Source: Paludibacteraceae bacterium (GTDB lineage: Bacteria; Bacteroidota; Bacteroidia; Bacteroidales; Paludibacteraceae). From it: DNA of 64,000 bases. The position numbers and the translations under genes were made by a program. Below the pieces are notes generated by a model. It saw nothing but the letters and a program-made list of their open reading frames with translations. It did no database searches and was not told where the DNA came from. Positions 6,492 to 46,602 of the stretch are shown here, piece by piece (position 1 is the stretch's first letter; the number at the start of each line of letters is the position of its first letter). The stretch spans positions 92,023-156,022 of the forward strand of contig JAGBVI010000064.1 in assembly GCA_017630395.1 (NCBI GenBank). Direction: 5' to 3'.

Positions 6492-6851
6492 TTAATTCGA
6501 AGCATAAATTGCAATTACTTTCTTCCAATAAGGTTCATACTTTTCTATTTCTCTCTTGATAGCTGCCTCATATTCCTCTTCGGATTTATCGTGATATTCG
6601 TCCCAAAGCCTATCGCCAACCAGCTCTTCAAATCTATCCCTATCTGTAAGCACAGTATCGTTATAATCATAAAAATCACAATCAAGAATTTCTTCTATAT
6701 AAAATGAAATTCTACTACAAAATGTCCATCCATAATCCCCAGAAGTAGAATCTTCATTTGCCAAAATCACCATTGGCAACTCTGGATTTTCAAGAATAAG
6801 TTTTTTCAATTCGTCAGTTTCTGTAGCTAAATAGTTTTTTAATATATTCAT
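6492..6851 (-). CDS. Hypothetical acidic protein
   Basis: 119 aa, strongly acidic, with Trp/Tyr-rich C-terminus. No recognised domain. Start preceded by AGAGGTAAAAT. Immediately upstream of the NAD operon promoter. Confidence 0.7.
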   Translation of the reverse strand: MNILKNYLATETDELKKLILENPELPMVILANEDSTSGDYGWTFCSRISFYIEEILDCDFYDYNDTVLTDRDRFEELVGDRLWDEYHDKSEEEYEAAIKREIEKYEPYWKKVIAIYASN

Positions 6852-19803: not shown

Positions 19804-20887
19804 TAATCTCCTTTACATCTTCTACGATTCTCTTAAAATTATTCCAATAACCACCGTCAAGGATAGTTACTTTATCCCAATTACCCGAAGCCTTTATGTT
19901 GTTACACAAGATTTCAAACAACTCTCTTCTTTCATCTTCTCCACTAAATGCCATATATCTTGTATGGTCATCTACGAATACTCCATGAGGACAAAGCAAG
20001 TAAATCTTATCCCATCTACATTTCTTTGTAATAGCATCTGCTGCTACTGCAATTTCTTTAAATTCATCTTCTGTCAATTCAAGTTCTGGGTCTTTACAAT
20101 AATATTCTGCATACATACGAGTTGTCATGCTGTCAGAATCCGCAAAGAATATACCTTGATTACTTGGGGAGTTAATCAGTTTTTTATTTAACTGATACTG
20201 ACCGTCAAGGAACGCCATATAATCAGCACCATCAAGTTCCCATTCTGAAATATAACTCTGTTCCATATAATCTCTTGCGTATTCATGAGAATAAGGTGCA
20301 TTAAAATACTTTCCTAAATCCTTAGTCAAAGTTGTCTTACCTTCACTTGCTGTTCCACAAATTAAGATGTTTGTACTAAACACTCTTCTAAAAGGATAAG
20401 TAATCTTGTCCCAGTACTTAATGGGATTTTCTCTAATCATTGTTGCAGAAATAGGATTTAAAGCTCTATCAAGTTTCACAACTTCGTAACAAAGATTGCT
20501 TAAATGTTCATGATACTCATCTTCGCTTACATAAAATACAGCACTACCATTTGCTCCAAGTGAATAGATTCTTTCAACTTCATCAATAAACTTATTCCAA
20601 CCATTCGGATAAGCTTCGATACCAAGTTCGGTTTCATCAATCGGATATACGGCAACCAAATCATCGTCTGCGAAAAATTCTCTCACATATCTATAACGAA
20701 GCTTGAGAGGCATTTCTTTACCGCCTCTATCTCCATCTCGACCATCGACAATCACCATACATCCACCATCGCATTCCTTCTTGGCTTGCATAATCAAATC
20801 CAAATGACCTTGATGTAATGGTGCGAATGTTCCGAAAACTACACCTATTTTATCACCATTTAATTTCTTTTGATATGTATGTATCAT
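19781..20887 (-). CDS. nadR: Bifunctional NMN adenylyltransferase / ribosylnicotinamide kinase
   Basis: 368 aa. The N-terminal nucleotidyltransferase domain has APLHQGH (22-28, HxGH-type) and ISATMIR (146-152). The C-terminal kinase has the P-loop GTASEGKTT (178-186), SHEYARDY, and ADSDSMTTRMYAEYY. No N-terminal HTH, so it lacks the enterobacterial repressor function. It phosphorylates nicotinamide riboside to NMN and adenylates NMN to NAD+, completing both the PnuC and the NAMPT routes. Confidence 0.94.
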   Translation of the reverse strand: MIHTYQKKLNGDKIGVVFGTFAPLHQGHLDLIMQAKKECDGGCMVIVDGRDGDRGGKEMPLKLRYRYVREFFADDDLVAVYPIDETELGIEAYPNGWNKFIDEVERIYSLGANGSAVFYVSEDEYHEHLSNLCYEVVKLDRALNPISATMIRENPIKYWDKITYPFRRVFSTNILICGTASEGKTTLTKDLGKYFNAPYSHEYARDYMEQSYISEWELDGADYMAFLDGQYQLNKKLINSPSNQGIFFADSDSMTTRMYAEYYCKDPELELTEDEFKEIAVAADAITKKCRWDKIYLLCPHGVFVDDHTRYMAFSGEDERRELFEILCNNIKASGNWDKVTILDGGYWNNFKRIVEDVKEIIENGKMD

Positions 20888-35925: not shown

Positions 35926-36159
35926 TTATGCTTCTACAATCATTCCTATGCAATCCACAATCGTGTTTACATATCCTCTAATCGAATACCCATACATTGC
36001 CTTAAAACTTCTAATCTCTTTGTTATACTCTTTTACGGCAAGTTCCGCTTCATATATGCCCATAGGCATTTTTCCGTTGTTACATACCTTGTAGAAATTA
36101 ACTACCTTTTCGGCATAGTTCTGACAATTTGCTAATTCTCCATAGCTTATATTCCGCAT
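35926..36159 (-). CDS. Hypothetical helical protein
   Basis: 77 aa, helical; no recognised domain. Confidence 0.64.
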   Translation of the reverse strand: MRNISYGELANCQNYAEKVVNFYKVCNNGKMPMGIYEAELAVKEYNKEIRSFKAMYGYSIRGYVNTIVDCIGMIVEA

Positions 36160-36171
36160 CTTAAATCCTCC

Positions 36172-36525
36172 TTACAACTCAAAAAACTTTATCAATGCTT
36201 CACACATTGCATTTTCAAGTTTCTCTTTCCATTTAGGATTATTAAAGTCAATCTCGTAATGAACAAATGTGCTTGTATCTGTTTCTATACAATCTTCCTC
36301 TTCGTTATAATCCGTTCTATAAATCGCACTACAATTTATATTTTCGCTGGTAGTATTGTCGATACAGAGATTATATTCAACTCCTATATTATCTCCGAAT
36401 GATACATAAGCAAATCCCCATTCATCAAAGCAATTTGTGTCCGCAATCTCCTCCAATACTCTTTCTTTTACTGCATTACAATACCAAGAATATTCCTCTT
36501 TTTGTTTTAGTTCTTTGATAGTCAT
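36172..36525 (-). CDS. Hypothetical protein
   Basis: 117 aa, acidic, beta-rich centre with flanking helices. No recognised domain. Confidence 0.65.
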   Translation of the reverse strand: MTIKELKQKEEYSWYCNAVKERVLEEIADTNCFDEWGFAYVSFGDNIGVEYNLCIDNTTSENINCSAIYRTDYNEEEDCIETDTSTFVHYEIDFNNPKWKEKLENAMCEALIKFFEL

Positions 36526-36528
36526 TTG

Positions 36529-36717
36529 TTAATTCCTCCATTTTCTATCGTATCTTTTTCCTTCTAATACTCTTTTGCATCGTCTTATTTCACTTTTTAA
36601 TGCTTTGATTCTTAAAGCATGTGTACCTTTAGATTCAAGCTTTTTTAAAAGCTCTTCTTTTTCTTCAAGAAAATCTTCTATAAGATTTCTGCAACTTTCA
36701 TTTACTGTGTCATTCAT
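36529..36717 (-). CDS. Small coiled-coil protein
   Basis: 62 aa, highly charged helix (FLEEKEELLKKLESKG); 3 nt from the next gene. Confidence 0.62.
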   Translation of the reverse strand: MNDTVNESCRNLIEDFLEEKEELLKKLESKGTHALRIKALKSEIRRCKRVLEGKRYDRKWRN

Positions 36718-36732
36718 TATTAAAACCTCTGC

Positions 36733-37110
36733 TTATATTTCGTAACTTGAATAACATTCAAGCAACCAATCAACTAAGCCAACCAAATCCGTATCAAGAT
36801 AAATAGGCATTTCAGTATTGTCTACTTCTCCACTCTCTTCGTCATAAGGCATAAGCCAATCAATCTCATAATCACATTGCATCATGCTATTATAAGGCTG
36901 ATATGCTACCTTTGCACATAGTCTATATGTTCCGTCTGTGCAACTATCATTTTCTTCCTTTTCAAATCCGTCTGCCCATCCAAGCACAATTGCCCAATCA
37001 TTATCATTCTCGTCTCTACCTAAAATCCAATGATATGTTCCGTTATATTTTGTTTCCTTCATATCTTCAACTGCATTTATAAATTCTTTAATTAATGTTT
37101 TTCTACTCAT
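36733..37110 (-). CDS. Hypothetical protein
   Basis: 125 aa. The YHWILGRDENDNDWAIVLGW segment and acidic C-terminus occur in related small phage proteins; function unknown. Confidence 0.66.
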   Translation of the reverse strand: MSRKTLIKEFINAVEDMKETKYNGTYHWILGRDENDNDWAIVLGWADGFEKEENDSCTDGTYRLCAKVAYQPYNSMMQCDYEIDWLMPYDEESGEVDNTEMPIYLDTDLVGLVDWLLECYSSYEI

Positions 37111-37124
37111 TATTAAATCCTCCG

Positions 37125-37271
37125 TTAAATTTTGTTAATAATTTCTTCCAACATTTCTTTCACAATATCAATCTGCGCTTCACCCTCTGGAGCATTATAG
37201 AATAAGTCATCATACTGTGTTTCATTTACTATGTATTTTCTTAAATCTTCGTATAAGTCAATAATGTTCAT
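37125..37271 (-). CDS. Small acidic helical protein
   Basis: 48 aa; begins MNIIDLYEDLRKYIV. RBS GGAGAATGTT and 12-13 nt gaps to both neighbours. Confidence 0.55.
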   Translation of the reverse strand: MNIIDLYEDLRKYIVNETQYDDLFYNAPEGEAQIDIVKEMLEEIINKI

Positions 37272-37283
37272 AACATTCTCCGT

Positions 37284-37484
37284 TTATACAATTCTATATT
37301 CTTTTTCATATTCTTCTTTAGTTAGAATCTTATCAATGAAGTATTCTACTGGATGATAAAAATTATTTGCTTTTACATTTTCAAAGGATTTAATTGCTAA
37401 ATCGTTTGCAGTTTCCCAATCATACCCCTTATCTGCTATCATCCGTGTTGCTTTTTCTATGTTCTTTAATGTTTTATATTTCAT
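37284..37484 (-). CDS. Hypothetical helical protein
   Basis: 66 aa from ATG 37484 (RBS GGAGGAATTTAT). No recognised domain. Confidence 0.63.
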   Translation of the reverse strand: MKYKTLKNIEKATRMIADKGYDWETANDLAIKSFENVKANNFYHPVEYFIDKILTKEEYEKEYRIV

Positions 37485-37515
37485 ATAAATTCCTCCACTC
37501 AATAGTTTTATGCGA

Positions 37516-37713
37516 TTATTCAACTTCAAACAATACGGCTATATTCATATTGTTAAATCTTTCGGATAATGCTACCATTGTCTTGAACAGTTCTCTTTGC
37601 GATGTACGACAATCATATTCCGAATTGGCTCTACATTTGATATTATAAGTTTTTTCTCCTATGGCAAATCCACCGCAATTTATTTCTGATATTGTAAATG
37701 TTAATTCCTTCAT
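37516..37713 (-). CDS. Hypothetical protein
   Basis: 65 aa from ATG 37713 (RBS GGAGGATTTAATAGA). No recognised domain. Confidence 0.62.
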   Translation of the reverse strand: MKELTFTISEINCGGFAIGEKTYNIKCRANSEYDCRTSQRELFKTMVALSERFNNMNIAVLFEVE

Positions 37714-37729
37714 TCTATTAAATCCTCCG

Positions 37730-37930
37730 TCAGTTATTGTCCGCATATTTCTGTGCCTCTCTTAAGGTCTTAAAACTTTCAAACATATTTTCATCGTCAT
37801 TTACTGTATAAAATACTTTGATTCTTCCGCTATACTCTCCCGTAAGAGCATCATATTTCCTATCTTCTTCTCTATTAATAATATATCCATTTCTAACTTC
37901 CAACTGCTCACATTTGATACACTTCATCAT
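37730..37930 (-). CDS. Hypothetical small alpha/beta protein
   Basis: 66 aa; CIKC near the start, strand-rich centre and FKTLREAQKYADN helix at the end. Confidence 0.63.
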   Translation of the reverse strand: MMKCIKCEQLEVRNGYIINREEDRKYDALTGEYSGRIKVFYTVNDDENMFESFKTLREAQKYADNN

Positions 37931-37966
37931 ATTTGTAATTTCTCCGTTAAATAGCTTTATGTGATT

Positions 37967-38146
37967 TTAACAATCAATTTTGTGTAAATCGTATTCGCAA
38001 CAAGGAAAGAATTTAATACCTTCTTCCGTATAAAGCACGAATATCTTTTTTCGTTTTCCTTCAAAGTTATAGTCAATATGCATATGGTATACTTTATCAA
38101 CGGCTTCATATGTTTCGTTTTTCTTATCAAAAAATACAATTCTCAT
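37967..38146 (-). CDS. Hypothetical beta-rich small protein
   Basis: 59 aa; begins MRIVFFDKKNETYEAV. Chosen over a similarly long overlapping frame because it has the RBS (GGAGGATATT) and fits the spacing of its neighbours. Confidence 0.6.
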   Translation of the reverse strand: MRIVFFDKKNETYEAVDKVYHMHIDYNFEGKRKKIFVLYTEEGIKFFPCCEYDLHKIDC

Positions 38147-38178
38147 AATATCCTCCGTCTTAAAATGGTTTTACATGG

Positions 38179-38544
38179 TTAATATCCATAATGTACAATT
38201 TGTATTTCGTCCCACTCACTTTCATCAATGCCTTTGAGCAATCCTAACAGCACATTCAATCTTCTATAACTTTTGCCATCTGCTATAAGTTTTTCCAAAT
38301 AACCAATAACAGTTTTACAATCTGTATAGGTCATTGCATTCCCATACTTATCTGTCTGTGTTGATTCGTCCATACTGTCAACGAAAAGTTCGTAATCAAC
38401 CTTCTTATCAAATAAAGATGTAAATCCATCATACATGCCCGACATCTTAATATCTGCGATTTTGTTTGCCCATACATAAGACATTCCATTGCCGTGATTA
38501 ATTTCATTTCTGTCTACAACAAATATTCTACTCTCATATCCCAT
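38179..38544 (-). CDS. Hypothetical protein
   Basis: 121 aa. ESRIFVVDRNE opening and LFVDSMDESTQTDKYG segment; resembles small phage proteins annotated only as hypothetical. Confidence 0.66.
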   Translation of the reverse strand: MGYESRIFVVDRNEINHGNGMSYVWANKIADIKMSGMYDGFTSLFDKKVDYELFVDSMDESTQTDKYGNAMTYTDCKTVIGYLEKLIADGKSYRRLNVLLGLLKGIDESEWDEIQIVHYGY

Positions 38545-38581
38545 GATAAATTCCTCCGTTTAAAATAGTAGTTTTATGTGG

Positions 38582-38797
38582 TTAAAAATTGTAGGTTTTT
38601 CTTGCTACCAAATATTCTTCTTCATTGTCATACTTTGCAAGCTTCCAATTAAAAGGATAGCTTACTGATTTCCACAACATCATATCGTCCAGCTCTTCGT
38701 GTTCCATCAAATACTTACAAAGTGCTTGTCTTTCGTTCTCTGCGGTTACATAACAATAAACTTCTGCGTATCTGTTGCCGATTTCAAAAACTTCCAT
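38582..38797 (-). CDS. Hypothetical small alpha/beta protein
   Basis: 71 aa from ATG 38797 (RBS TGGAGGAAAAGCAG). Strand then ENERQALCKYLMEH helix; same plan as neighbouring small genes. Confidence 0.63.
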   Translation of the reverse strand: MEVFEIGNRYAEVYCYVTAENERQALCKYLMEHEELDDMMLWKSVSYPFNWKLAKYDNEEEYLVARKTYNF

Positions 38798-38826
38798 CTG
38801 CTTTTCCTCCACTTAAAATGTGATTT

Positions 38827-39015
38827 TTATGTTCCGTAATAAACTTCGCAAATATCATTATCAAATCTTATTTCTTCTAATGTTTTATCTTTCCATAAAT
38901 TATAATCATAGTATGTTCTTTTTAAAATTTGTTCAGCTTCATTCTTATTTGTTGCCCTTACAACTCCTGCAACTTTTTCTCCTTGAATATATCCATAAAA
39001 TCTATAAAATTTCAT
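38827..39015 (-). CDS. Hypothetical small alpha/beta protein
   Basis: 62 aa from ATG 39015 (RBS TGGAGGATTTAATAG). GVVRATNKNEAEQILKR segment; same fold type as 38582-38797. Confidence 0.63.
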   Translation of the reverse strand: MKFYRFYGYIQGEKVAGVVRATNKNEAEQILKRTYYDYNLWKDKTLEEIRFDNDICEVYYGT

Positions 39016-39056
39016 TTCTATTAAATCCTCCACTTAAAATACATGTTTTATTTGTG

Positions 39057-39224
39057 TTAATGAGCTTCAATAAATACTCTTGCTTGAATAATTCCGTCCG
39101 TATCAAGCTTATTTATTTTATCCGTAAATTCTTGTGCTTTCTTTTTACTGGTGTATCTTTCCCACATCAACTCCCTTCTGTTCATTACTCTGTTAAATAC
39201 GCTGATTCTATAAATTTTTCTCAT
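39057..39224 (-). CDS. Hypothetical small alpha/beta protein
   Basis: 55 aa from ATG 39224 (RBS AAGGAGAATTTAATT). Basic; TSKKKAQEFTDKINK helix. Confidence 0.6.
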   Translation of the reverse strand: MRKIYRISVFNRVMNRRELMWERYTSKKKAQEFTDKINKLDTDGIIQARVFIEAH

Positions 39225-39264
39225 AATTAAATTCTCCTTATTTTTGTTTAATAACTCAATTCCA

Positions 39265-39286
39265 TGCAGAAGATTTCTCTTCTGCA
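39265..39286 (-). repeat. Intergenic hairpin
   Basis: Perfect 8-bp stem TGCAGAAG/CTTCTGCA with a 6-nt loop, between the stop of 39322-39822 and the next start. No U-run; may mark an mRNA 3' end or processing site. Confidence 0.55.
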
Positions 39287-39321
39287 CAGTGTTCAATTAT
39301 TAAACCTTATAAACTTATTTG

Positions 39322-39822
39322 TTATTCTTCTTCCTCATAAGGCACATTGCATTTGATATTTGTTAATACATAACTCCAAGCTGTTCCCCAATGAGTTACA
39401 CCCCATACATACATATCAAGTTCTTCATTGTAGTAAACAATTTCATTGATTTCCTTAAGAATTTCCGCTCCATTGTCACTTACAATGTAATACTGAAAAC
39501 ATTCTTCGTTATAAGAATTTTCCTGCTCTTCTTCAAGTTCATTGATTTTATCCTGCAACTCTTCAATTTCTTCCGTATGTTCATCGTTTTCATTGTCAAG
39601 CATCAGTTCTTCAATCTGTTCTTGAAGTTCTTCAATTTCTTCCGTGTTGTCTATTGTTCCGCTTTCCTGTTCCCAATATCCGATATCATAAGTTTTCTGA
39701 ATAATATCGTTATTGAGTACGGCATCAAAGCTCTTTGCTAATGTTCCGTAGTCAACATAACCGTTCTGCTGACCATATTCGCTAATTTCGTTTCCGTAAA
39801 AGTATTTTCCGTGTACTACCAT
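39322..39822 (-). CDS. Coiled-coil acidic protein
   Basis: 166 aa. Central coiled coil (about 60-97) with near-repeat units EEIEELQEQIEEL and EEIEELQDKINEL; Tyr-rich flanks. Function unknown. Confidence 0.68.
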   Translation of the reverse strand: MVVHGKYFYGNEISEYGQQNGYVDYGTLAKSFDAVLNNDIIQKTYDIGYWEQESGTIDNTEEIEELQEQIEELMLDNENDEHTEEIEELQDKINELEEEQENSYNEECFQYYIVSDNGAEILKEINEIVYYNEELDMYVWGVTHWGTAWSYVLTNIKCNVPYEEEE

Positions 39823-39870
39823 TTTTGATTTCTCCTTTTTATATAAGTTTATTTGTTGATTTGTTTAGGA

Positions 39871-39890
39871 GGACGATTTTTCAATCGTCC
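39871..39890 (-). repeat. Intergenic hairpin overlapping a stop codon
   Basis: 8-bp stem GGACGATT/AATCGTCC with a 4-nt loop; the TGA of the gene at 39881-40075 lies within it. Positioned like the ribozyme-linked hairpins further up the operon. Confidence 0.55.
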
Positions 39891-40075
39891 ACTTTAATAA
39901 TGATACAAGGTTTATGGTTTTTAATATCCAAATACCATTTTTCCACCTCATACCCTTCTAATAAGTCATATAGCTCTGGTGTTAATTCCTTTACATATTG
40001 TCCGTAATCAATGTAGACATGTTCAAAATTTTCCAAGCTGTCAAAAAGAAATTCATTCAAAGTCATTTGAAACAC
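39881..40075 (-). CDS. Hypothetical acidic protein
   Basis: 64 aa; begins MFQMTLNEFLFDSLENF. First gene below the promoter at 40115-40143. Confidence 0.6.
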   Translation of the reverse strand: MFQMTLNEFLFDSLENFEHVYIDYGQYVKELTPELYDLLEGYEVEKWYLDIKNHKPCIIIKVDD

Positions 40076-40114
40076 ATCCTTTTCGATTTTGTTGTACTTC
40101 TTATCTTCGATACC

Positions 40115-40143
40115 ATTGTATCACATAAAACATACCTTGTCAA
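40115..40143 (-). promoter_or_regulatory. Perfect sigma-A promoter
   Basis: Minus strand TTGACA (40138-40143), 17 bp, TACAAT (40115-40120). Serves the genes from 40075 leftward; it lies just after the ribozyme-rich segment ends. Confidence 0.82.
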
Positions 40144-40245
40144 GTAGTTTATTGAAAATTCTTGAAAATTCTTGAAAATTTTTTAATGTTTACAAATTGT
40201 TCATAAACAAATTTTCCGTTGTTAATCAATGGATATTGCTATTGT

Positions 40246-40452
40246 TTACTCAATGGTTTTTCCAATAGCGTTCATACAAACCTCACGGAAGAATGTATTT
40301 TTTGCGATTCCATGATTCTCGCAATATGCATTAATTGCTTCGATTTCTTCAATCTTAAAGCATATTGATTGATACTTGAAATTCTTTTCTGTGTATTTTT
40401 TCCGAGCTTTCTTGTTACTTTCAAGCTGGTTTTTCTGTGTATTCTTTGCCAT
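40246..40452 (-). CDS. Ribbon-helix-helix (CopG/Arc-like) protein
   Basis: 68 aa. Very basic N-terminus, then YQSICFKIEEIEAINAYCENHGIAK-type strand-helix-helix ending NTFFREVC. Fits the RH3/CopG family of small DNA-binding repressors. Candidate regulator of the adjacent promoters. Confidence 0.7.
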   Translation of the reverse strand: MAKNTQKNQLESNKKARKKYTEKNFKYQSICFKIEEIEAINAYCENHGIAKNTFFREVCMNAIGKTIE

Positions 40453-40476
40453 TATTTATCCTTCCTTTCCTTTGTT

Positions 40477-40556
40477 AGCATACCCACTACTTTAGATATG
40501 TGGTGTGTAGCTTTAACGGAAAGCGATTAAACTTTCCGCCTATCAGCTTTTATGCT
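40477..40556 (-). ncRNA. Three-stem structured RNA, class A copy 1
   Basis: Read on the minus strand: CTGATAGG, hairpin CGGAAAG/CTTTCCG, TTAAAGCTAC, then CCAC/GTGG stem enclosing the conserved ATATCTAAAGTA loop; outer arms GCATA/TATGC. Fills the junction between genes 40557-40901 and 40246-40452. Confidence 0.68.
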
Positions 40557-40901
40557 TTACTGAATATCCACCGCAAAATCAACTTCATAATCATCACTAA
40601 AAAGTTCGTTATAACCTCTGCTGTCATACTCTGCCGTGATAACAATTCGGTTGATTTCTTCTTCAAAAGTGATTTTTCCAAACTGTGAAAGATATTCTTC
40701 CACTCTTTCCGCATATTCGGGATTACAAGAAACAAAGATTTTGTTAGTTCCGCTGAGATTTTCCAACTTGTAGAAAATATCCTTGTTGTCTCTCACATTA
40801 TTGAAAATGTGCAGAAACGACATAGCATATTGCTGGATATCATTTCCAAGGTCAACAGTAAATTCTATAGCTTTGCTCTTTTCGTGTGAATACTTAATCA
40901 T
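40557..40901 (-). CDS. Hypothetical protein
   Basis: 114 aa from ATG 40901 (GGAAAATATT upstream). Alpha/beta, acidic; no recognised domain. Flanked on both sides by class A RNA elements. Confidence 0.62.
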   Translation of the reverse strand: MIKYSHEKSKAIEFTVDLGNDIQQYAMSFLHIFNNVRDNKDIFYKLENLSGTNKIFVSCNPEYAERVEEYLSQFGKITFEEEINRIVITAEYDSRGYNELFSDDYEVDFAVDIQ

Positions 40902-40928
40902 AATATTTTCCTTTTCTTTTTGTAAATT

Positions 40929-41005
40929 TAGCACCTACCTACTTTGGATATGGTAGCGTAGCTTTAAACAAGCGGATTTTCCGCTTGTCCCATCAGCATT
41001 ATGCT
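40929..41005 (-). ncRNA. Three-stem structured RNA, class A copy 2
   Basis: Minus strand: CTGATGGG, hairpin ACAAGCGGA/TCCGCTTGT, TTAAAGCTAC, then CTACC/GGTAG enclosing ATATCCAAAGTA. The hairpin arms are entirely different from copy 1 yet fully paired (covariation). Confidence 0.68.
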
Positions 41006-41196
41006 TCAAGTTCTTCCGTGTTAATTTCTCTCCCGCTTTTAGTCCAATAAGTTACGCTAATTTCATAACCTTCTGTTTCGGGAAATTTCTCTTTGAATAC
41101 TTTGTATACTTCTTTTAATTTCCGTTCACTTACGATACTACGCTCATGTGTAGCGAAGAAATGTTGTCCATTTAGAGCTACATTGATTTCATACAT
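40999..41196 (-). CDS. Hypothetical protein
   Basis: 65 aa; begins MYEINVALNGQHFFAT. Its stop codon lies inside the class A element. Overlaps nothing upstream (14-nt gap, RBS AAGGAGGCTG). Confidence 0.62.
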   Translation of the reverse strand: MYEINVALNGQHFFATHERSIVSERKLKEVYKVFKEKFPETEGYEISVTYWTKSGREINTEELEA

Positions 41197-41210
41197 TGTT
41201 TTCAGCCTCC

Positions 41211-41543
41211 TTATGCTTCATTATGCTTATCAATAATTTTCTGTAAAGCTGGTGTGATATTTTCCAAGATTGTATATCCGTGATATTCCAAAGCTTCTTT
41301 TGCACCTTCTACAAGAAATAATTGATTAACATACTCATATTGAACATCTTCGACAAATCTGTCCGCAGGGACATATCCTTGAATATCGTTATAATCGGGG
41401 TTAATATAATCTATTCCCGCAACTAATTCAAGCTCCCAAGTGATAAAATCTGTAGCGGAGTATGTTTCAAATTTTCCGACTTTGTACACAAATTTTTCTT
41501 CATTGGTAACATAGAATTTGTGATTTTCAAGATAATGTTTCAT
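41211..41543 (-). CDS. Hypothetical protein
   Basis: 110 aa; begins MKHYLENHKFYVTNEE. No recognised domain. RBS AAGGGAGAGAAAATT follows class A copy 3. Confidence 0.64.
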   Translation of the reverse strand: MKHYLENHKFYVTNEEKFVYKVGKFETYSATDFITWELELVAGIDYINPDYNDIQGYVPADRFVEDVQYEYVNQLFLVEGAKEALEYHGYTILENITPALQKIIDKHNEA

Positions 41544-41570
41544 AATTTTCTCTCCCTTTTCTCTTTTTCC

Positions 41571-41648
41571 ATCTGCCCGTTACTTTGAATATACGGGGAG
41601 TTGGTTTAACATGGAGAATATTTTCTCCATGCTCATCACCTATCAGAT
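41571..41648 (-). ncRNA. Three-stem structured RNA, class A copy 3
   Basis: Minus strand: outer ATCTG/CAGAT, CTGATAGGTGATGA, hairpin CATGGAGAA/TTCTCCATG, TTAAACCAAC, stem CCCGT/ACGGG enclosing ATATTCAAAGTA. The TGA stop of the upstream gene is part of the conserved CTGATAGG box. Confidence 0.7.
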
Positions 41649-41927
41649 TCTCGGTAATAAAATTCTTCCAAGTTTTTTCCGTAATTCTTCAAAAGATTTG
41701 CTCTTGTAATCTGGATTCATCCAAACATATTCAAGCGTATCACTATCAACATCAATTATTCCGTATGCTCCGTGCTGAATACAAGCCTTTTTCGCTTCTT
41801 CAAAAGAATCAAAGATAATAGCGTATTTGATTCCTTCAAAACGCTCTTCATAAAGTGTATTTCCGCAATGCATATAATCCGCTTCGGTCATATCATAGGG
41901 AGCTTTGAGTTTTACTTGATATTTCAT
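41643..41927 (-). CDS. Hypothetical protein
   Basis: 94 aa from ATG 41927 (RBS AAGTGGAGGAAAAT). DSFEEAKKACIQHG helix between strands; first gene below the promoter at 41955-41983. Confidence 0.64.
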   Translation of the reverse strand: MKYQVKLKAPYDMTEADYMHCGNTLYEERFEGIKYAIIFDSFEEAKKACIQHGAYGIIDVDSDTLEYVWMNPDYKSKSFEELRKKLGRILLPRI

Positions 41928-41954
41928 ATTTTCCTCCACTTGATTTTCTAATAC

Positions 41955-41983
41955 TATTCTATCATACTTTACAAGGTATTGCA
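41955..41983 (-). promoter_or_regulatory. Sigma-A-like promoter with overlapping inverted repeat
   Basis: Minus strand TTGCAA (41978-41983), 17 bp, TAGAAT (41955-41960). The -35 region is bracketed by an inverted repeat ACTTTACA (41965-41972) / TGTAAAGT (41986-41993), a candidate operator. The spacer shares TGTAAAGTATGATA with the promoter at 45288-45316. Confidence 0.65.
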
Positions 41984-42037
41984 AGATGTAAAGTTATACA
42001 AAAATTCCGTCTGTGTTTTGTATAACTTGTACAATTG

Positions 42038-42217
42038 TCAGTTCTTAATTTCCATAAAGTCATATCCTCCACAAGTTCCTTTTTCAATTCTCTTGTCAAG
42101 TTTTCTTGTAAAGTCTAATCCTTCGTCTATATTATGAAAAATTTTCTGCTTTTCGTCACCTTGTCCGTTGATATAATAGCAAATCCAAGTTCTTTTATTT
42201 TTCATATTATTTTCCAT
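42038..42217 (-). CDS. Small hypothetical protein
   Basis: 59 aa; begins MENNMKNKRTWICYYI. RBS AAGGAGAAAATCAT. No recognised domain. Confidence 0.58.
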   Translation of the reverse strand: MENNMKNKRTWICYYINGQGDEKQKIFHNIDEGLDFTRKLDKRIEKGTCGGYDFMEIKN

Positions 42218-42243
42218 ATGATTTTCTCCTTTTCTCTTTTTAT

Positions 42244-42319
42244 AAACTGTCCGCTACTTTGAATATGCGGTATGTCAGTTTACAGACGGAAAATTCCGTC
42301 TGTCATCACTTGTCAGTTT
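42244..42319 (-). ncRNA. Three-stem structured RNA, class A copy 4
   Basis: Minus strand: outer AAACTG/CAGTTT, GACAAGTGATGA, hairpin ACAGACGGA/TCCGTCTGT, TAAACTGAC, stem CCGC/GCGG enclosing ATATTCAAAGTA. The junction triplet pair here is AGT/ACT where other copies have GGT/ACC. Confidence 0.7.
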
Positions 42320-42331
42320 TAAAATATGATT

Positions 42332-42484
42332 TTATTTACTGTAATATTCTATTAAGATTTTCACAGCTTTTTCGTCAAGGTTGATGGCGTTTGTGTCATC
42401 ACCTTTAACTCTGCACAGATAAAATTCATCTTGCTTCATAGCGTTTAAAATATCCGTTAAGATTTTTACCTTGTAATCATCCAT
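42332..42484 (-). CDS. Small hypothetical protein
   Basis: 50 aa from ATG 42484 (AAAAGGAAAAAATGTT upstream). Helix then strand; bracketed by a class A element and a twister ribozyme. Confidence 0.55.
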   Translation of the reverse strand: MDDYKVKILTDILNAMKQDEFYLCRVKGDDTNAINLDEKAVKILIEYYSK

Positions 42485-42516
42485 AACATTTTTTCCTTTT
42501 CTTTTTATAAAATTTT

Positions 42517-42575
42517 CCTCACTCTGCATTTATGCGGACTTGTGACCGCTTGACTTTTGTCAAGTTGCATTAAGG
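42517..42575 (-). ncRNA. Twister ribozyme (candidate)
   Basis: Minus strand: TTAATGCA, optional hairpin CTTGAC-AAAA-GTCAAG, then CGGTCACAAGTCCG, AAATGCA and GAGTGAGG. This follows the twister core order; one core C is U here. A 7-bp hairpin (42577-42593) directly precedes it in the transcript. Confidence 0.68.
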
Positions 42576-42601
42576 TGGACGGAAAATCCGTCCGTTTTGG
42601 T

Positions 42602-42772
42602 TTAATATCCTCTGGTATTCCATCTGTTGATTCTATAACGGATATACTTTTCAGATGTAATTTTCCGTATCTCTTGACGGGTTCTCAGCTTGTCAACAAC
42701 AAATCCGATAGTGCCGATAATTCCGCAAATACTTAACAAACAAATCAACCAATAAAGAACAAATTCATACAT
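42602..42772 (-). CDS. Small membrane protein
   Basis: 56 aa; begins MYEFVLYWLICLLSIC. Hydrophobic residues 3-26 then a basic C-terminus. AAAAGGAAAAAATATC precedes the ATG. Confidence 0.58.
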   Translation of the reverse strand: MYEFVLYWLICLLSICGIIGTIGFVVDKLRTRQEIRKITSEKYIRYRINRWNTRGY

Positions 42773-42808
42773 GATATTTTTTCCTTTTCTTTTTATAAAG
42801 ATTTTACC

Positions 42809-42885
42809 AATCTGCCCGATACTTTGAATTTTCGGGGTGTTGGTTTACGGATAGATTTTTTCTATCCGTCATCACCTATCAGATT
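42809..42885 (-). ncRNA. Three-stem structured RNA, class A copy 5
   Basis: Minus strand: outer AATCTG/CAGATT, CTGATAGGTGATGA, hairpin CGGATAG/CTATCCG, TAAACCAAC, stem CCCGA/TCGGG enclosing AAATTCAAAGTA. Abuts the stop of 42886-43062. Confidence 0.7.
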
Positions 42886-43062
42886 TTAATATTCGCTGTC
42901 GTACTCGTCATCTTGCCATGCAAAATTGATTCTTTCTTTAAGTTCTGCGATACTTTCGTCAAGTGAAATTATCTCATTTTCATCGATTGCATTAGCTCTC
43001 AACTCTTTCAGCTCTTCAAGCTCTTTTTCAAGCTTGTAGGGATTTTCATACTGTCTATACAT
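42886..43062 (-). CDS. Small coiled-coil acidic protein
   Basis: 58 aa; begins MYRQYENPYKLEKELEEL. Helical; AAAAGGAAAATTTACT precedes the ATG. Confidence 0.57.
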   Translation of the reverse strand: MYRQYENPYKLEKELEELKELRANAIDENEIISLDESIAELKERINFAWQDDEYDSEY

Positions 43063-43090
43063 AGTAAATTTTCCTTTTCTTTTTGTAAAA

Positions 43091-43139
43091 ATTAGCGTTT
43101 ACCTATCGGGTTTGTGACCGTCTGGCTGACCGCATTAAC
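43091..43139 (-). ncRNA. Twister-like ribozyme (weaker candidate)
   Basis: Minus strand: TTAATGCG, GTCAGCC, AGACGGTCACAAACCCG, AAACGC. The GCC...ACGGTCACAA core matches twister but one core G is A and the usual 3' purine-rich box is not clear. Preceded by a 7-bp hairpin (43139-43154). Confidence 0.5.
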
Positions 43140-43171
43140 GGGGAATTTTCCCCGCCACTCTGCGAAAGTGT

Positions 43172-43540
43172 TTAAATCTCATAACAAGTTAAATTCCAAG
43201 CATTGCCAAGCTGATAATATAAACCGTATTTTGTGAAAATAGCTCTAAATTCTGCCTCATATTTCGTCCAATTGGGGACATATGCATTAAGTACATCATA
43301 TAAACTACCTTCAAAGCTCATGCTCAAAATATGGTTTTCTGCTACATATTCAAAGTATTTTTTCGGGTTGTCTTCAAATTCAAAATACTTGCTTTCGTTA
43401 TAGCAAAATTCGGAATTGTCTTTACTGTTTGTACTCCAACATTTACCATTGAAATAAATATGAACATCTACCCACATTTCATGCTTGACTAAATATTCAT
43501 GGATATCTTTTGCAAGTAATTCTATTTGCTTTTTGTTCAT
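43172..43540 (-). CDS. Hypothetical protein
   Basis: 122 aa; begins MNKKQIELLAKDIHEYL. Tyr/Trp-rich; no recognised domain. Located between two twister elements. Confidence 0.65.
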   Translation of the reverse strand: MNKKQIELLAKDIHEYLVKHEMWVDVHIYFNGKCWSTNSKDNSEFCYNESKYFEFEDNPKKYFEYVAENHILSMSFEGSLYDVLNAYVPNWTKYEAEFRAIFTKYGLYYQLGNAWNLTCYEI

Positions 43541-43566
43541 GGTTCTTCATTTCCTTTTCTTTTTAT

Positions 43567-43622
43567 ATGACCACTCACAATTTTTAAACGGGCTTGTGAC
43601 CGTCTTTGGCTTGTTTAGTCAT
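43567..43622 (-). ncRNA. Twister ribozyme
   Basis: Minus strand: P1 ATGAC/GTCAT, TAAACAAGCC, GACGGTCACAAGCCCG, AAAATTGTGAGTG, with P2 ACAA/TTGT. All core boxes of type P1 twister are present, and scission is expected at the U-A step after P1. A 6-bp hairpin (43623-43646) directly precedes it in the transcript. Confidence 0.85.
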
Positions 43623-43907
43623 GGCGGTTTATTATACGATACCGCCAAACGCTTTACCCGCTCTATTTTCATTATGTCGGGTTTCATTGTTGCGGGTTTA
43701 ACTGATAGCCCGCTTCATACTGACCTTGACTTATACTCTATCAGCCCGAGTGCATACACTATTACAACTCCTATCTGGTATGCGGATAGCTCTTTTCGTT
43801 CGGGTTTATACACCTTTTGCCCGTTGGTGGATTGATTCGGTTTATCGTGCTTGACTCAATCTGGAATAAACACGGGGAATTGCTTTCCTTTTCTTTTAGG
43901 ATTTGAT
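43623..43907. other. Non-coding gap, GC-richer
   Basis: About 285 bp with no convincing minus-strand gene. It contains the hairpin GGCGGT/ACCGCC at its left end and an inverted repeat CTGATAG/CTATCAG near its middle. A plus-strand reading frame is open here but has no RBS and opposes the operon. It may be a decayed gene or a longer structured RNA. Confidence 0.5.
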
Positions 43908-43967
43908 AATCCCAAACGGCATTTATTGCCGTTTTCGTCGCAATTTTCAGCGACTCATCAGGGGATT
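43908..43967 (-). ncRNA. Hammerhead ribozyme (type I)
   Basis: Minus strand: stem I AATCCC/GGGATT; core CTGATGA (43955-43961); stem II GTCGC/GCGAC; core GAA then stem III AACGGCA/TGCCGTT closed by the A-U pair; cleavage residue U at 43914. Every invariant hammerhead core position is met. Lies just downstream of the stop of 43969-44157. Confidence 0.88.
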
Positions 43968-43968
43968 T

Positions 43969-44157
43969 TTAGTCTTTAAATTTAGCTCCCGCAATAATAA
44001 GAGAGGCTATGATAACTTCTGTTTCAGCTATACCGAATCTCATACGCTCACGGAGCATTGCATACATTTGGTCTCTTGTCATACTTTCATCAAAATATGC
44101 AGTATTATTTTTTTCACGCTCTACAATCTTTTTTGCAAGTGTTTTTGTCATCTTCAT
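43969..44157 (-). CDS. Small helical hypothetical protein
   Basis: 62 aa; begins MKMTKTLAKKIVERE. Helical; sits between class A copy 6 upstream and a hammerhead downstream. Confidence 0.6.
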   Translation of the reverse strand: MKMTKTLAKKIVEREKNNTAYFDESMTRDQMYAMLRERMRFGIAETEVIIASLIIAGAKFKD

Positions 44158-44187
44158 TTTTTTTGTTTCCTTTTCTTTTTTTTGTTT

Positions 44188-44259
44188 ACCGTCCGTTACT
44201 TTAGATATACGGATGTCGGTTTAACACGGGATTTTCTCCCGTGCCTATCGCCCGTCGGT
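44188..44259 (-). ncRNA. Three-stem structured RNA, class A copy 6
   Basis: Minus strand: outer ACCG/CGGT, GACGGGCGATAGG, hairpin CACGGGA/TCCCGTG, TTAAACCGAC, stem TCCGT/ACGGA enclosing ATATCTAAAGTA. The most divergent copy, but all stems remain paired. Confidence 0.66.
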
Positions 44260-44265
44260 ATAATG

Positions 44266-44538
44266 TTAATTGTTTGTGATAAGATAGCTATTATTTGCCG
44301 TTTCAATTCTTGTTCCCTCTTCTGTTTCCCAAGCTACAGAAAAGTTGAAAGTATTATGTGAACAGATATGAAAGTTATAGCCGTTTTCTTTTGCACACTG
44401 GGCAAGGCAATAATTATACGCTTTTTCTTTAGCATATGAAAAATTGCCGTATACATCCCGCAAAGAATAACCTTCGTTATAACTTGCATTGTTTAACATT
44501 GTCTGTCCTCTTTTTGTTGTTGCTTTAATTGTTGTCAT
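44266..44538 (-). CDS. Hypothetical protein
   Basis: 90 aa from ATG 44538 (RBS GAGGAAAAAATC). Tyr/Asn-rich; no recognised domain. Begins right after the hammerhead at 44578-44632. Confidence 0.62.
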   Translation of the reverse strand: MTTIKATTKRGQTMLNNASYNEGYSLRDVYGNFSYAKEKAYNYCLAQCAKENGYNFHICSHNTFNFSVAWETEEGTRIETANNSYLITNN

Positions 44539-44577
44539 GATTTTTTCCTCTTTTCTTTTTATTTTTTTATGGGTGTT

Positions 44578-44632
44578 ATCCCGATACCCTTTCGGGTATT
44601 TCGTCGTAATTTTCAACGACTCATCAGGGGAT
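44578..44632 (-). ncRNA. Hammerhead ribozyme (type I)
   Basis: Minus strand: stem I ATCCC/GGGAT; CTGATGA (44621-44627); stem II GTCGT/ACGAC; GAA; stem III ATACCC-GAAA-GGGTAT; cleavage after the C at 44583. Stem II and III arms differ from the copy at 43908 in compensatory fashion. Abuts the stop of 44633-44785. Confidence 0.9.
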
Positions 44633-44785
44633 TTACTTTTTTATGCTTTTGTTAATGTTGTCGAGTCTATCTTGAAGTGTTGCGGGTTTGGGTTCGTTGG
44701 CTTTCTTTTTGTTGTATTCGTCAACGCTTTTGTTATGCTCCGTCATGAGTCTATCCCATTTTGCTTCAAAATCAAACATTGTCAT
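44633..44785 (-). CDS. Small helical protein
   Basis: 50 aa from ATG 44785 (RBS AGAGGTATAAAAAA). Charged, Lys/Asn-rich; first gene of the leftward arm downstream of the tandem promoters. Confidence 0.55.
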   Translation of the reverse strand: MTMFDFEAKWDRLMTEHNKSVDEYNKKKANEPKPATLQDRLDNINKSIKK

Positions 44786-44818
44786 TTTTTTATACCTCTT
44801 TTTTCTTTTTATTTTTTT

Positions 44819-44873
44819 GTGTCTATCACTTTTTTTCAAACGGGCTTTAGACCGTCTACGGCAAGTTTAACAC
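44819..44873 (-). ncRNA. Twister ribozyme
   Basis: Minus strand: P1 GTGT/ACAC, TTAAACTTGCC, GACGGTCTAAAGCCCG, GAAAAAAAGTGATAG. P2 CTT/AAG-type pairing. A 9-bp hairpin CCGTATAAC/GTTATACGG (44874-44898) directly precedes it in the transcript. Confidence 0.8.
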
Positions 44874-45003
44874 CCGTATAACCTTAACAGTTATACGGAT
44901 AATAAAAAGATAAAGGAAAAGGAAATTTAACGCCACCCGATACATTTTTACTTGTTTGCAAGTGTTCGCTTTATGCGTAACTTTTAAAACTTGCTTTCGT
45001 TCT

Positions 45004-45069
45004 CACGCTTTCGGGTTCGGCTATTTGGTTTTCAATGAGCTTTCGTTACTCAGTACACGCTTTCGGGTT
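45004..45069 (-). repeat. Direct repeat in early leader
   Basis: 14-nt perfect direct repeat (plus strand CACGCTTTCGGGTT) at 45004-45017 and 45056-45069, flanking the boxA-like element, in the leader of the leftward transcript. Confidence 0.55.
45028..45042 (-). promoter_or_regulatory. boxA-like element in leader 1
   Basis: Minus strand AGCTCATTGAAAACC. Resembles the NusB/NusE-binding boxA of Gram-positive rRNA leaders (GTTCTTTGAAAACT type). Present in an almost identical context below each of the two tandem promoters. Confidence 0.45.
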
Positions 45070-45104
45070 TATGTTACCTTTCGCCGTGTTCTTTTGACAT
45101 TCTC

Positions 45105-45133
45105 ATTATAGCATACCTTGCAAGGTTTGTCAA
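45105..45133 (-). promoter_or_regulatory. Perfect early promoter PL1 with spacer palindrome
   Basis: Minus strand TTGACA (45128-45133), 17 bp, TATAAT (45105-45110). The spacer contains a perfect 12-bp palindrome ACCTTGCAAGGT (45115-45126), a likely repressor site between -35 and -10. Confidence 0.87.
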
Positions 45134-45210
45134 TATGGCATTTTGCACAAACTTTTTTGTTGTTTTTTGTGCATTTTGCCGAATTGGTTTTTTGCTTGTT
45201 TGATATGCTA

Positions 45211-45225
45211 TTTTCAATGAGCTTT
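45211..45225 (-). promoter_or_regulatory. boxA-like element in leader 2
   Basis: Minus strand AAAAGCTCATTGAAAA, second copy of the leader element, below promoter PL2. Both leaders also share GACAAAAGAACAC or TCAAAAGAACAC shortly after the start site. Confidence 0.45.
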
Positions 45226-45287
45226 TAAACGCTGGAGCACTTGACCGCTTGCCGTGTGGCTTGTGGTGTGTTCTTTTGTCTGTATAC

Positions 45288-45316
45288 ATTGTATCATACT
45301 TTACAAACTATGTCAA
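45288..45316 (-). promoter_or_regulatory. Perfect early promoter PL2
   Basis: Minus strand TTGACA (45311-45316), 17 bp, TACAAT (45288-45293). Upstream partner of PL1; shares spacer sequence TGTAAAGTATGA with the promoter at 41955. Confidence 0.85.
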
Positions 45317-45391
45317 TATGGAATATTAAACAAAATTTTTTGATTTTTTGGGCTGTTTTTTGTGTAATTTGACGAAATGGTCAAATGATGA

Positions 45392-45419
45392 TTTTAGAGG
45401 TTCACGTGAACCTCTAAAA
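45392..45419. repeat. 28-bp perfect palindrome
   Basis: Each 14-nt half is TTTTAGAGGTTCAC, meeting without a spacer at CACGTG. Suits a symmetric protein site; as RNA it would be a long stem without loop room, so an operator or origin element is more likely than a terminator. Confidence 0.7.
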
Positions 45420-45486
45420 CGGTCAAGCGAACCGAAAAATTGTTATTTTAAAAAATAGCCCTGCAGTACATACGAAATTTTGTTCG

Positions 45487-45555
45487 GAACATTTGTTCGG
45501 TTAAAATTGAATGTGACATTTTGAGCAAAAGTCAAATTGAAAAGAACAGATGTTC
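45487..45555. promoter_or_regulatory. Two LexA/DinR-like boxes
   Basis: GAAC-N4-GTTC occurs at 45487-45498 (GAACATTTGTTC) and 45544-45555 (GAACAGATGTTC), each followed by GG. The Bacillus-type SOS box is CGAAC-N4-GTTCG; each site has a one-base deviation in the flanks. A third TGTTCGG precedes the first. Confidence 0.5.
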
Positions 45556-45642
45556 GGACGGGGGTAGTTTACATTTTTTAACATTTTTTTGGCAGACGGG
45601 GGACGGTAATGTGGTCTATCTATTCCTCAACAACAAAAATAA

Positions 45643-45767
45643 TCTCCCATCGTCTCCCATCGTCTCCCATAATTTCTCTTCATAATCTCCCATAATCACT
45701 TACAAATACCTGCACAAACAACCAAAATATAAAGTCCTATATCCATCCTATATCCATCCTATATTCG
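45643..45767. repeat. Iteron-like tandem repeats (origin candidate)
   Basis: TCTCCCAT at 45643, 45653, 45663 (10-bp period) and 45686; then three 11-bp units TCCTATATCCA-type at 45735, 45746 and 45757. Period near one helical turn, AT-rich flanks and the nearby winged-helix gene suggest initiator binding sites. Confidence 0.5.
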
Positions 45768-46433
45768 TCATATATTTACCCCATATTTGCCATACTCTAT
45801 TTCATACTCATCCCATACTCCACTCTATTTTATCTCCAGTCATTTTCTTTATCCATCCTATTAAACCTATGTTTTAACTTCATATTTTTCTATAATCTTT
45901 TCTTAATCTTCTCTTAATTTTATTTTTTTATACCAATTAATTATTAAATTATTATCAAAATATCCTTAGCTATTTTTAATTTTTTTATCTTAAAATTCAC
46001 TAAAATAATCCAAAAACAATCCAAAAACATAATAAAAATTTACGGTGATTTTACGGAATAAATAAAAGTACGATACAAAACAAAATCATAAAAATGCTAT
46101 CATAACAACCTTAAAACAAAGCCGTCTGGAAAGAACCATCAATCCTTAAATGAACTACTCAATGGTCAGAACCAAAATTCTTAAACGAAAAATATTCATC
46201 AAAATATTATTATTTGATACTAAGACCAATTGAAATATAACCTTAAATTAAAGCAATATAAATTTTCGAATACAAAATAAAGTAACATATCTTCCGTGAA
46301 AATATGCCGTAACCCAAATAAATGACATTAAATAATGCCTTATAATAAGGTTTTATTAATATACAATATGTACAATCTCCGTAAGCCTAAAATATTATAA
46401 AAAAAATATTATAAAAAATTTTCTAAAAACCTA

Positions 46434-46462
46434 TTGACAAGTAAGTATTTTTAGTGTATAAT
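46434..46462 (+). promoter_or_regulatory. Perfect rightward sigma-A promoter
   Basis: TTGACA (46434-46439), 17 bp, TATAAT (46457-46462). Gives a 350-nt leader before the gene at 46819. Confidence 0.87.
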
Positions 46463-46602
46463 AACTACAGTATATACAAAATATACTTATCTGCATAAAA
46501 TATATTTCTTTATAACTATTAATGTTATATAATATAATCATATGGACTATTAATTATATCCGTATTAATTTTTAATATATTTTATATTAAAAGTAGCAGC
46601 AC

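Follow-up and report, generated by a model that had tools for sequence, protein, structure and literature searches.

Why does a bacteriophage interrupt an operon with self-cleaving RNAs at one gene junction after another, and does it matter which RNA stands at a given junction? The question is raised by the window, that is, the whole stretch of 64,000 nucleotides of DNA from a Paludibacteraceae bacterium that was analysed here, in which terminase and portal matches mark the genes of a large phage. Its large terminase is SPbeta-like, being 48.5% identical to the yonF product of SPBc2 with 95% of the query covered. The minus strand carries a series of small genes that form one operon, presumably an early one; the timing is an inference that is consistent with a perfect sigma-70-type promoter (TTGACA-17-TATAAT) at 45133-45105, upstream of the operon, which agrees with the consensus at 12/12 positions and ranks first of 33 in 40000-45500. 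The sequence-only reading of the operon had described a set of genes with ribozymes of different classes standing between them. This description is correct, but its inventory was incomplete, as six of the 12 junction elements belong to a further RNA, here called X, and one of the twisters is of type P5.

The genes that serve as landmarks all lie on the minus strand. Specifically, a small gene at 44266..44538, for which neither Pfam nor PHROG gave a match at E 0.01, has its ortholog at 6511-6780 of the related phage L320, and a second small gene at 43969..44157 has its ortholog at 5393-5599 of the same contig. These are followed by gene A (43172..43540, phrog_35453), gene B (41211..41543, phrog_3653) and gene C (40557..40901), the latter with orthologs in L320 (4379-4720) and in L322 (5714-6061). 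The minus-strand segment 43622..43905, between the second hammerhead and a twister, contains no evident gene and no listed Rfam match; its tail, AAGCGTTTGGCGGTATCGTA, is found again in four other phage contigs.

The known ribozyme classes were verified by Rfam scans of both strands over 36000-46500 and by direct reading. Two type I hammerheads had been proposed at gene junctions of the minus strand and both, HH1 (44578..44632) and HH2 (43909..43966), are complete by eye: each has the CUGANGA core sequence (here CUGAUGA), stem II, GAAA, stem III, a U-H cleavage position and an open stem I. The Rfam check was less generous, with a weak match of 20 bits at 44595-44637 and none at the second site. 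HH1 retains its place at the same junction of L320 with a stem III that is altered yet still pairs. A hammerhead model, R2, made from HH1, HH2 and six L320 copies, detects hammerheads outside its seed, namely five in L322, one in L327 and a weak one (23 bits) in L332.

Four twisters had been read as well, again at minus-strand gene junctions; three of them are recognized by Rfam models and the fourth is weak, with a counterpart in L320. In particular, the two stronger type P1 elements, at 42516..42576 (57.3 bits, E 5e-11) and 43568..43621 (45.7 bits, E 1e-7), remain under the Rfam cut-off of 67.2 bits. The element placed at 43091 and labelled the weaker one lies in fact at 43106..43164, is of type P5, and is the sole twister above its cut-off (52.2 bits, E 9e-9; cut-off 37.6 bits). 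The truly weak one is the first element of the operon, a type P1 candidate at 44823..44873 (20.7 bits, E 1.6), which is backed by its counterpart in the related phage L320 (7266-7320, 28.5 bits, E 0.042); by eye, both sides of P1 and of P2 have changed between the two.

The six structured elements that had been overlooked are copies of X, an RNA of about 77 nt at junctions of the operon on the minus strand. All six are seed members of model R1: X1 (44186..44261, 70.9 bits), X2 (42809..42885, 85.0 bits), X3 (42244..42319, 81.1 bits), X4 (41570..41649, 92.9 bits), X5 (40929..41006, 65.7 bits) and X6 (40477..40556, 87.4 bits). In its fold P1, P2/P3 and P4 meet at a three-way junction, and the P4 loop forms a 3-bp pseudoknot with the left shoulder of the internal loop between P2 and P3. 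The sequence comparison shows that X is conserved, that it covaries and that it contains the pseudoknot. Across 26 copies (25 distinct), six of which defined the structure, 96.2% of cells are paired, and 250 cells carry double changes as compared with 71.2 in shuffles, none of 500 shuffles reaching 250; for two of the five measures of covariation the signal is weak, with 10 and 54 of 500 shuffles reaching it. The pseudoknot was excluded from the X search model; one of its three pairs never varies, and the other two, in which G-C and A-U replace each other, are intact in 49 of 50 cells. RNAalifold recovers P1 to P4 on an alignment that was itself fitted to the model, a first version having been made by hand; for one base of the pseudoknot, however, it chooses an invariant U as the partner. 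Moreover, single-sequence folds have a mean z of -3.5. A compact, conserved and covarying fold with a junction or a pseudoknot is a usual trait of self-cleaving ribozymes and no proof of one, and the alignment does not point to a cleavage site.

Beyond the window, 20 further copies of X occur in 13 other stretches, 12 of them viral records and one a contig of an uncultured Ruminococcus MAG (L220/L321), which is the one confident MAG match and came from the pattern scan. A first loose DNA pattern applied to viral contigs returned mostly chance matches, and 120 pattern stretches were filtered with R1 in batches of 97 and 23. Matches below 30 bits were dropped before counting: two in relatives, two in the order search, nine more from the larger batch, four from the smaller one, three elsewhere, seven at E >0.03 and two in L358. 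One of the dropped rows, L221, may be a genuine diverged copy. The copy in L331 (31.6 bits) has one pseudoknot pair broken and was retained as a misfit, and L357 (30.3 bits) was left out of the set; scores of 21-22 bits in the control loci L006, L007 and L019 are regarded as chance. X was found in none of 15 bacterial congeners at E 0.001 and, among 395 genomes of the class, besides its own genome only in the weak match L357. A search of cultured phages by way of neighbouring proteins gave distant protein relatives only, or none.

The position of X resembles that of the ribozymes. The junction elements mostly begin at the stop codon of a gene and reach almost to the ribosome-binding leader of the gene that follows, and X mostly occupies positions of this type: its start falls within -14 to +12 nt of the upstream stop codon in 21 of 25 copies, and all but two of the 25 have an ATG 16-48 nt downstream. 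In addition, 12 of the 15 X-bearing stretches contain a twister, pistol or hammerhead when scanned in a laxer Rfam E-value mode, and nine still do at the strict cut-offs applied to 17 control loci without X, which are chance pattern matches unmatched for phage host. Twister-P5 exceeds its cut-off in six of 13 X-bearing viral records, compared with none of 30 others. In three X stretches (L323, L330, L331) no trustworthy known ribozyme was found, and a search of the whole records with Twister-P5, pistol and R2 returned none except one R2 match of 15.9 bits.

A further observation comes from orthologous genes. Fourteen gene flanks were compared between the window and L320, and seven differ in the class of element, five of these being X against pistol or hammerhead; the exchange is documented in one close relative and, for one gene, in a second (L322). 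Specifically, beside the orthologs of the genes that flank X1, L320 has a pistol, and it has a hammerhead before the ortholog of the gene preceded by X4. X5 is replaced by a hammerhead before the gene C ortholog in L320 and, read by hand, in L322, and after that ortholog the counterpart of X6 is a hammerhead in L320 and an X in L322. In other words, X is exchanged with known ribozymes beside orthologous genes and co-occurs with them. The alternation of two classes, on which the sequence-only reading had placed the weight, is not the main point. The relative swaps classes beside orthologous genes, pistol included, with X on an equal footing.

The best explanation, to which we assign a probability of roughly 0.62, is that X represents an undescribed class of self-cleaving ribozyme that helps to cut the phage polycistron into single-gene mRNAs. 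At most junctions between genes the transcript would be cleaved by a small RNA that cuts itself, that is, a hammerhead, a twister or X, with both the cleavage by X and the location of its cut as presumed steps. Given that the elements mostly fill the space between a stop codon and the following leader, the products would be monocistronic mRNAs with similar short leaders, and, by analogy, their 5'-OH and 2',3'-cyclic phosphate ends might shape mRNA stability or translation. A cautionary precedent is provided by ten structured RNAs that another study had found by their association with ribozymes and that failed to cleave in vitro (PMC10085705).

The same placement and fold could also suit an RNA that does not cut. 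Exonuclease-resistant RNAs have, in outline, a three-way junction with a pseudoknot. X, which shares this architecture and sits where ribozymes sit, might block exonucleases or tag the mRNA for a host or phage nuclease, as the protein-dependent equivalent of a ribozyme; a protective element, however, would be expected beside ribozymes, whereas X and ribozymes substitute for each other beside orthologous genes, and this non-catalytic role is considered unlikely. Its location just upstream of the ribosome-binding site, its conserved unpaired bases and its pseudoknotted fold would also be compatible with a riboswitch or a phage-protein binding site controlling the downstream gene, but six copies stand before different genes of one operon and a relative has another class before the same gene, which makes regulation of this kind distinctly improbable. 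Slightly less probable again is that X derives from a known ribozyme class by divergence or permutation. Set against the pistol topology described in PMC4604425, the layout of X recalls a pistol whose hairpin stands on the 3' instead of the 5' side; by eye, nevertheless, the two differ in loop lengths and in conserved bases, and no Rfam ribozyme model matches the 27 copies submitted to E-value scans. Finally, several copies follow one another, but every helix shows compensatory changes, and this covariation essentially disposes of the idea of mobile or structural DNA repeats with no RNA role; the six copies of the window also share a single orientation, that of transcription, and have a mean column identity of only 62%, which likewise speaks against it.

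Returning to X as a self-cleaving RNA, its relation to described systems can be stated more precisely. None of the 27 copies exceeded any Rfam cut-off or matched a ribozyme family; chance-level overlaps were confined to X2 (mir-363), X3 (osmY) and X4 (TeloSII_ncR30, on the other strand), the other 24 copies having none. As possible identities of X, hatchet, pistol, twister-sister and permuted hammerheads were rejected by eye and by Rfam. Pistol (RF02679; PMC4604425) is likewise phage-associated and about 70 nt long, and it too has a hairpin loop that forms a pseudoknot with the left shoulder of P2/P3, but its hairpin lies 5' of P2/P3 and that of X lies 3', junction lengths and conserved bases differ, and RF02679 matched at no copy scanned. 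Twister-P1 and Twister-P5 (RF03160, RF02684) stand next to X, sharing its operons and its type of junction, and have a different fold and core. The type I and RAGATH-1 (RF03152) hammerheads are both its neighbours and its replacements; X lacks the CUGANGA...GAAA core, and in its pseudoknot GAURR is paired with YYA of the P4 loop. The HRIMA motifs are comparable as structured RNAs near ribozymes and candidate ribozymes themselves, but they are almost all metatranscriptomic (PMC10085705), and this sets them apart from X, which comes from DNA phages. X appears to be new and has no Rfam counterpart; other published motif collections may contain it.

Clusters of ribozymes as such have a precedent in hammerheads that flank single genes of prophages (PMC3088659). 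There too ribozymes stand at successive phage gene junctions, and processing into single-gene or operon-length mRNAs was proposed. Unlike those clusters, the present operon combines two known classes with X, and classes are exchanged in a relative.

A weaker lead concerns the purpose of the cuts. On the minus strand, between the promoter and the first twister, a pyrimidine stretch at 44901..44925, termed the anti-leader, complements the common polypurine leader of the genes and is followed by a hairpin (44874..44898, read directly); L320 has a near-identical stretch and an equivalent hairpin. Among 10,662 window segments the anti-leader is the top same-strand complement of 11 leaders. This promoter-proximal leader, once released by the first twister, might act in trans on the polypurine leaders of the single-gene mRNAs. 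The complementarity is a lead and not a result, and it is weakened by L319 and L332, where no 5'-leader site was found and where the best sites elsewhere score -16.3 and -15.1 kcal/mol, equal or near to the -16.3 of the window. The combined proposal, in which X is a new structural ribozyme class interchangeable with hammerhead and pistol and the twister-freed leader is a trans antisense RNA that switches the whole operon, is accordingly doubtful as a whole.

If X cuts, another class would be added to the short list of natural self-cleaving ribozymes, one that offers six native copies in a single operon and more beside orthologous genes. That unrelated classes replace one another beside a single gene points to the cut itself, and not the particular RNA, as what is kept. 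For the purpose of cutting, the anti-leader provides a concrete, still weak hypothesis, and, should X prove to cleave, the question of why phages put ribozymes between their genes would become testable.

Four twisters and two hammerheads had been recognized in the minus-strand operon by the sequence-only reading, and this observation stands. Three of the twisters have strong Rfam E-values (42516-42576, 43106-43164 and 43568-43621) and the fourth is a weak match (44823-44873), the curated cut-off being passed by the P5 twister at 43106-43164 only. Both type I hammerheads (HH1, 44578-44632; HH2, 43909-43966) are complete by eye, one of them, at an Rfam score of 20 bits, being hardly detected. 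Both the first hammerhead and the first twister have counterparts at the corresponding places of the related phage fragment L320, with compensatory changes as read by eye, and the counterpart of the twister reaches 28.5 bits in Rfam. Phage transcripts punctuated by ribozymes are an already known kind: PMC3088659 describes prophage genes flanked by several hammerheads, proposes that these process the transcript to short mRNAs and reports in vitro cleavage for three tandem sets, and PMC4604425 reports phage genes often near pistol RNAs. Between HH2 and a twister, about 285 nt of the minus strand (43622-43905) contain no evident gene and may possibly be a ribozyme-bounded noncoding RNA. Its tail, AAGCGTTTGGCGGTATCGTA, also occurs in L363, in L322 after a hammerhead, in L361 behind a sequence resembling a hammerhead (17.9 bits in R2, the hammerhead model built from two window and six L320 copies) and in L362 between repeats resembling a tRNA 3′ half. 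Elsewhere in the window, phage NAD salvage genes (3554-5041 and 19781-20887) are assigned by PHROGs to nicotinamide phosphoribosyltransferase and nicotinamide-nucleotide adenylyltransferase.

The sequence-only inventory missed, however, six copies of another RNA, X, which emerged from reading the other junctions of the operon, all on the minus strand: X1 (44186-44261), X2 (42809-42885), X3 (42244-42319), X4 (41570-41649), X5 (40929-41006) and X6 (40477-40556). Hand alignment of these copies gives four helices, namely P1 at the ends, P2 of 3 bp, the variable hairpin P3, and P4, whose 12-nt loop is conserved and in most copies reads AWAUYYAAAGUA. With R1, the covariance model derived from the six copies, the host assembly yields six hits with E no higher than 1, every one inside this operon. 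Further copies came from pattern scans of viral and genome contigs, filtered with R1, and from searching 15 entire records or genomes reached via their loci. The resulting alignment, A4, comprises 26 copies, of which 25 are distinct; 6 come from the window and 20 from 13 further stretches, made up of 12 viral records and L321, a contig belonging to an uncultured Ruminococcus MAG. L328 was omitted, being near-identical to L325.

Pairing is kept in 96.2% of the cells of A4 and falls to 30-42% when partners are slid by 1-3 columns; the fitting of this alignment, six seed copies included, to the model biases it in favour of P1-P4. Changes on both sides occur in 250 cells, against a shuffled mean of 71.2, a value reached by none of 500 shuffles; two of the five measures are weaker, pairs changed on both sides (10/500) and further pair types (54/500). 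The pseudoknot, absent from the model used for fitting, joins GAU-RR beside P3 to YY-A of the P4 loop. Of the three pairs, one is invariant and the two variable ones are kept in 49 of 50 cells (G-C 14 and 19, A-U 10 and 5, G-U 1; L331 breaks one). Supplied with no structure, RNAalifold recovers P1-P4 from A4 and pairs the second pseudoknot R instead with an invariant U beside P3, which leaves unexplained the covariation of this R with the P4-loop Y. Single sequences fold with a mean z of -3.5 (-1.0 to -5.5), recovering 119/156 pairs of P1, 60/78 of P2, 179/187 of P3 and 124/130 of P4. X is a genuine structured RNA that no Rfam 15 family matches above its cut-off: none of 27 copies scanned reached one, and the sub-cut-off matches overlapping X2 (mir-363), X3 (osmY) and X4 (TeloSII_ncR30, other strand) look like chance. 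A text search of the literature, which cannot retrieve motifs by structure, gave no paper recognizable as describing X; the thousands of candidate RNAs listed in PMC8040213 may include it.

X sits mostly between the stop codon of one gene and the start of the next. Considering, for 25 copies, the longest ORF ending from 130 nt before to 16 nt into the element, X starts within -14 to +12 nt of the upstream stop codon in 21, the other four lying 37, 69, 113 and 122 nt away, and an ATG gene start follows 16-48 nt downstream in 23 (search range 75 nt). For 35 known ribozymes treated likewise, 23 start within the same range, 7 farther and 5 have no such ORF, with an ATG 22-71 nt downstream in 31.

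Moreover, X keeps the company of known ribozymes. According to Rfam and R2, twister, pistol or hammerhead is present in 12 of 15 X-bearing stretches (the window and L319-L332, with near-duplicates L324/L326 and L325/L328). Specifically, Twister-P5 is found in the window, L319, L321, L322, L324, L325, L326 and L328, and just below cut-off in L329; twister-P1 in the window, L320 and L332; pistol in L320 and L322; and hammerhead in the window, L320, L322, L327 and, weakly, L332. No trustworthy known ribozyme was detected in L323, L330 and L331, the last with a 15.9-bit hammerhead-model match. Among 13 X-bearing viral records, 6 carry Twister-P5 over cut-off, versus none of 30 viral records from chance pattern matches, 2 carry pistol and 5 have R2 hammerhead matches (2 weak, and one, G432, by construction). 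Of the six X-bearing records above 100 kb, five (108-167 kb; G429, G431, G430, G427 and, just below cut-off, G435) have Twister-P5 at a distance of roughly 0.3 to 4 kb from an X copy, and G433 has no such match. All ribozyme controls are unmatched for host; they include 17 non-X viral loci with no ribozyme at Rfam cut-offs and 12 loci with a gene-A relative and no X, also with none. The product of gene A (43172-43540) shares 34-36% identity with hypothetical proteins of the Bacillus jumbo phages AR9, PBS1 and Goe21.

The window operon and L320 have seven genes in common (36-71% identity), and their 14 flanks were compared by hand. At three of them neither phage has an element, and at one the window alone has one; the class agrees at three (one hammerhead, two X) and differs at seven. 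Where it differs, X1 faces pistols on two flanks (one window element, two L320 pistols), X4, X5 and X6 each face an L320 hammerhead, and so do two window twisters. As gene order differs, X5 and X6 are each counted twice, exchanged once and kept once, and one L320 hammerhead is also counted twice. In L322, the ortholog of the small operon gene C is preceded by a hand-read hammerhead with a long stem III and followed by X. Different ribozyme classes and X thus substitute for each other.

A possible reason for the cuts, a lead and not a result, is pairing between leader and anti-leader. Most genes downstream of elements share a ribosome-binding leader resembling AUAAAAAGAAAAGGAAA, whose strict form occurs seven times in the window, always on the minus strand and directly after an element. 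Upstream of the first twister, whose cut would free the upstream leader, UUUCCUUUUCCUUUAUCUUUUUAUU and then a hairpin lie behind the region's best promoter. This anti-leader (44901-44925) is the best same-strand complement of 11 leaders among 10,662 window segments and ranks 29 of 21,324 on both strands, where the 25 better segments listed are antisense to the leaders themselves. The corresponding L320 place is the best complement of 2,243. In L322, the best site lies within stem-loop III of a hammerhead, and the second-best is the stretch before the first placeable gene, also followed by a hairpin; this stretch scores -17.0 kcal/mol with L322 leaders and only -9.9 with window leaders, and the window stretch -16.3 with its own and -14.6 with L322 leaders. 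Against this lead, the best sites of L319 (-16.3) and L332 (-15.1), neither in such a leader, score about as well. At L322 5603-5690, a hand-read hammerhead has a long stem-loop III with a stretch complementary to ribosome-binding leaders of its own operon, reaching -32 kcal/mol with one. On the window minus strand, similar promoter-like sites at 45288-45316, 41956-41984 and 40115-40143 (TTGACA or TTGCAA, spacer 17, TACAAT or TAGAAT, the second hexamer being preceded by TG) suggest a common promoter type.

The L319 and L332 scores lower the odds of the bolder case, a new class X plus a predicted antisense leader, which appears improbable. Ten ribozyme-associated motifs that failed to cleave, as described in PMC10085705, are a fair warning for X. 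Taking position, company and exchange together, the best explanation, with a probability of about 0.6, is that X is a new class of self-cleaving ribozymes.
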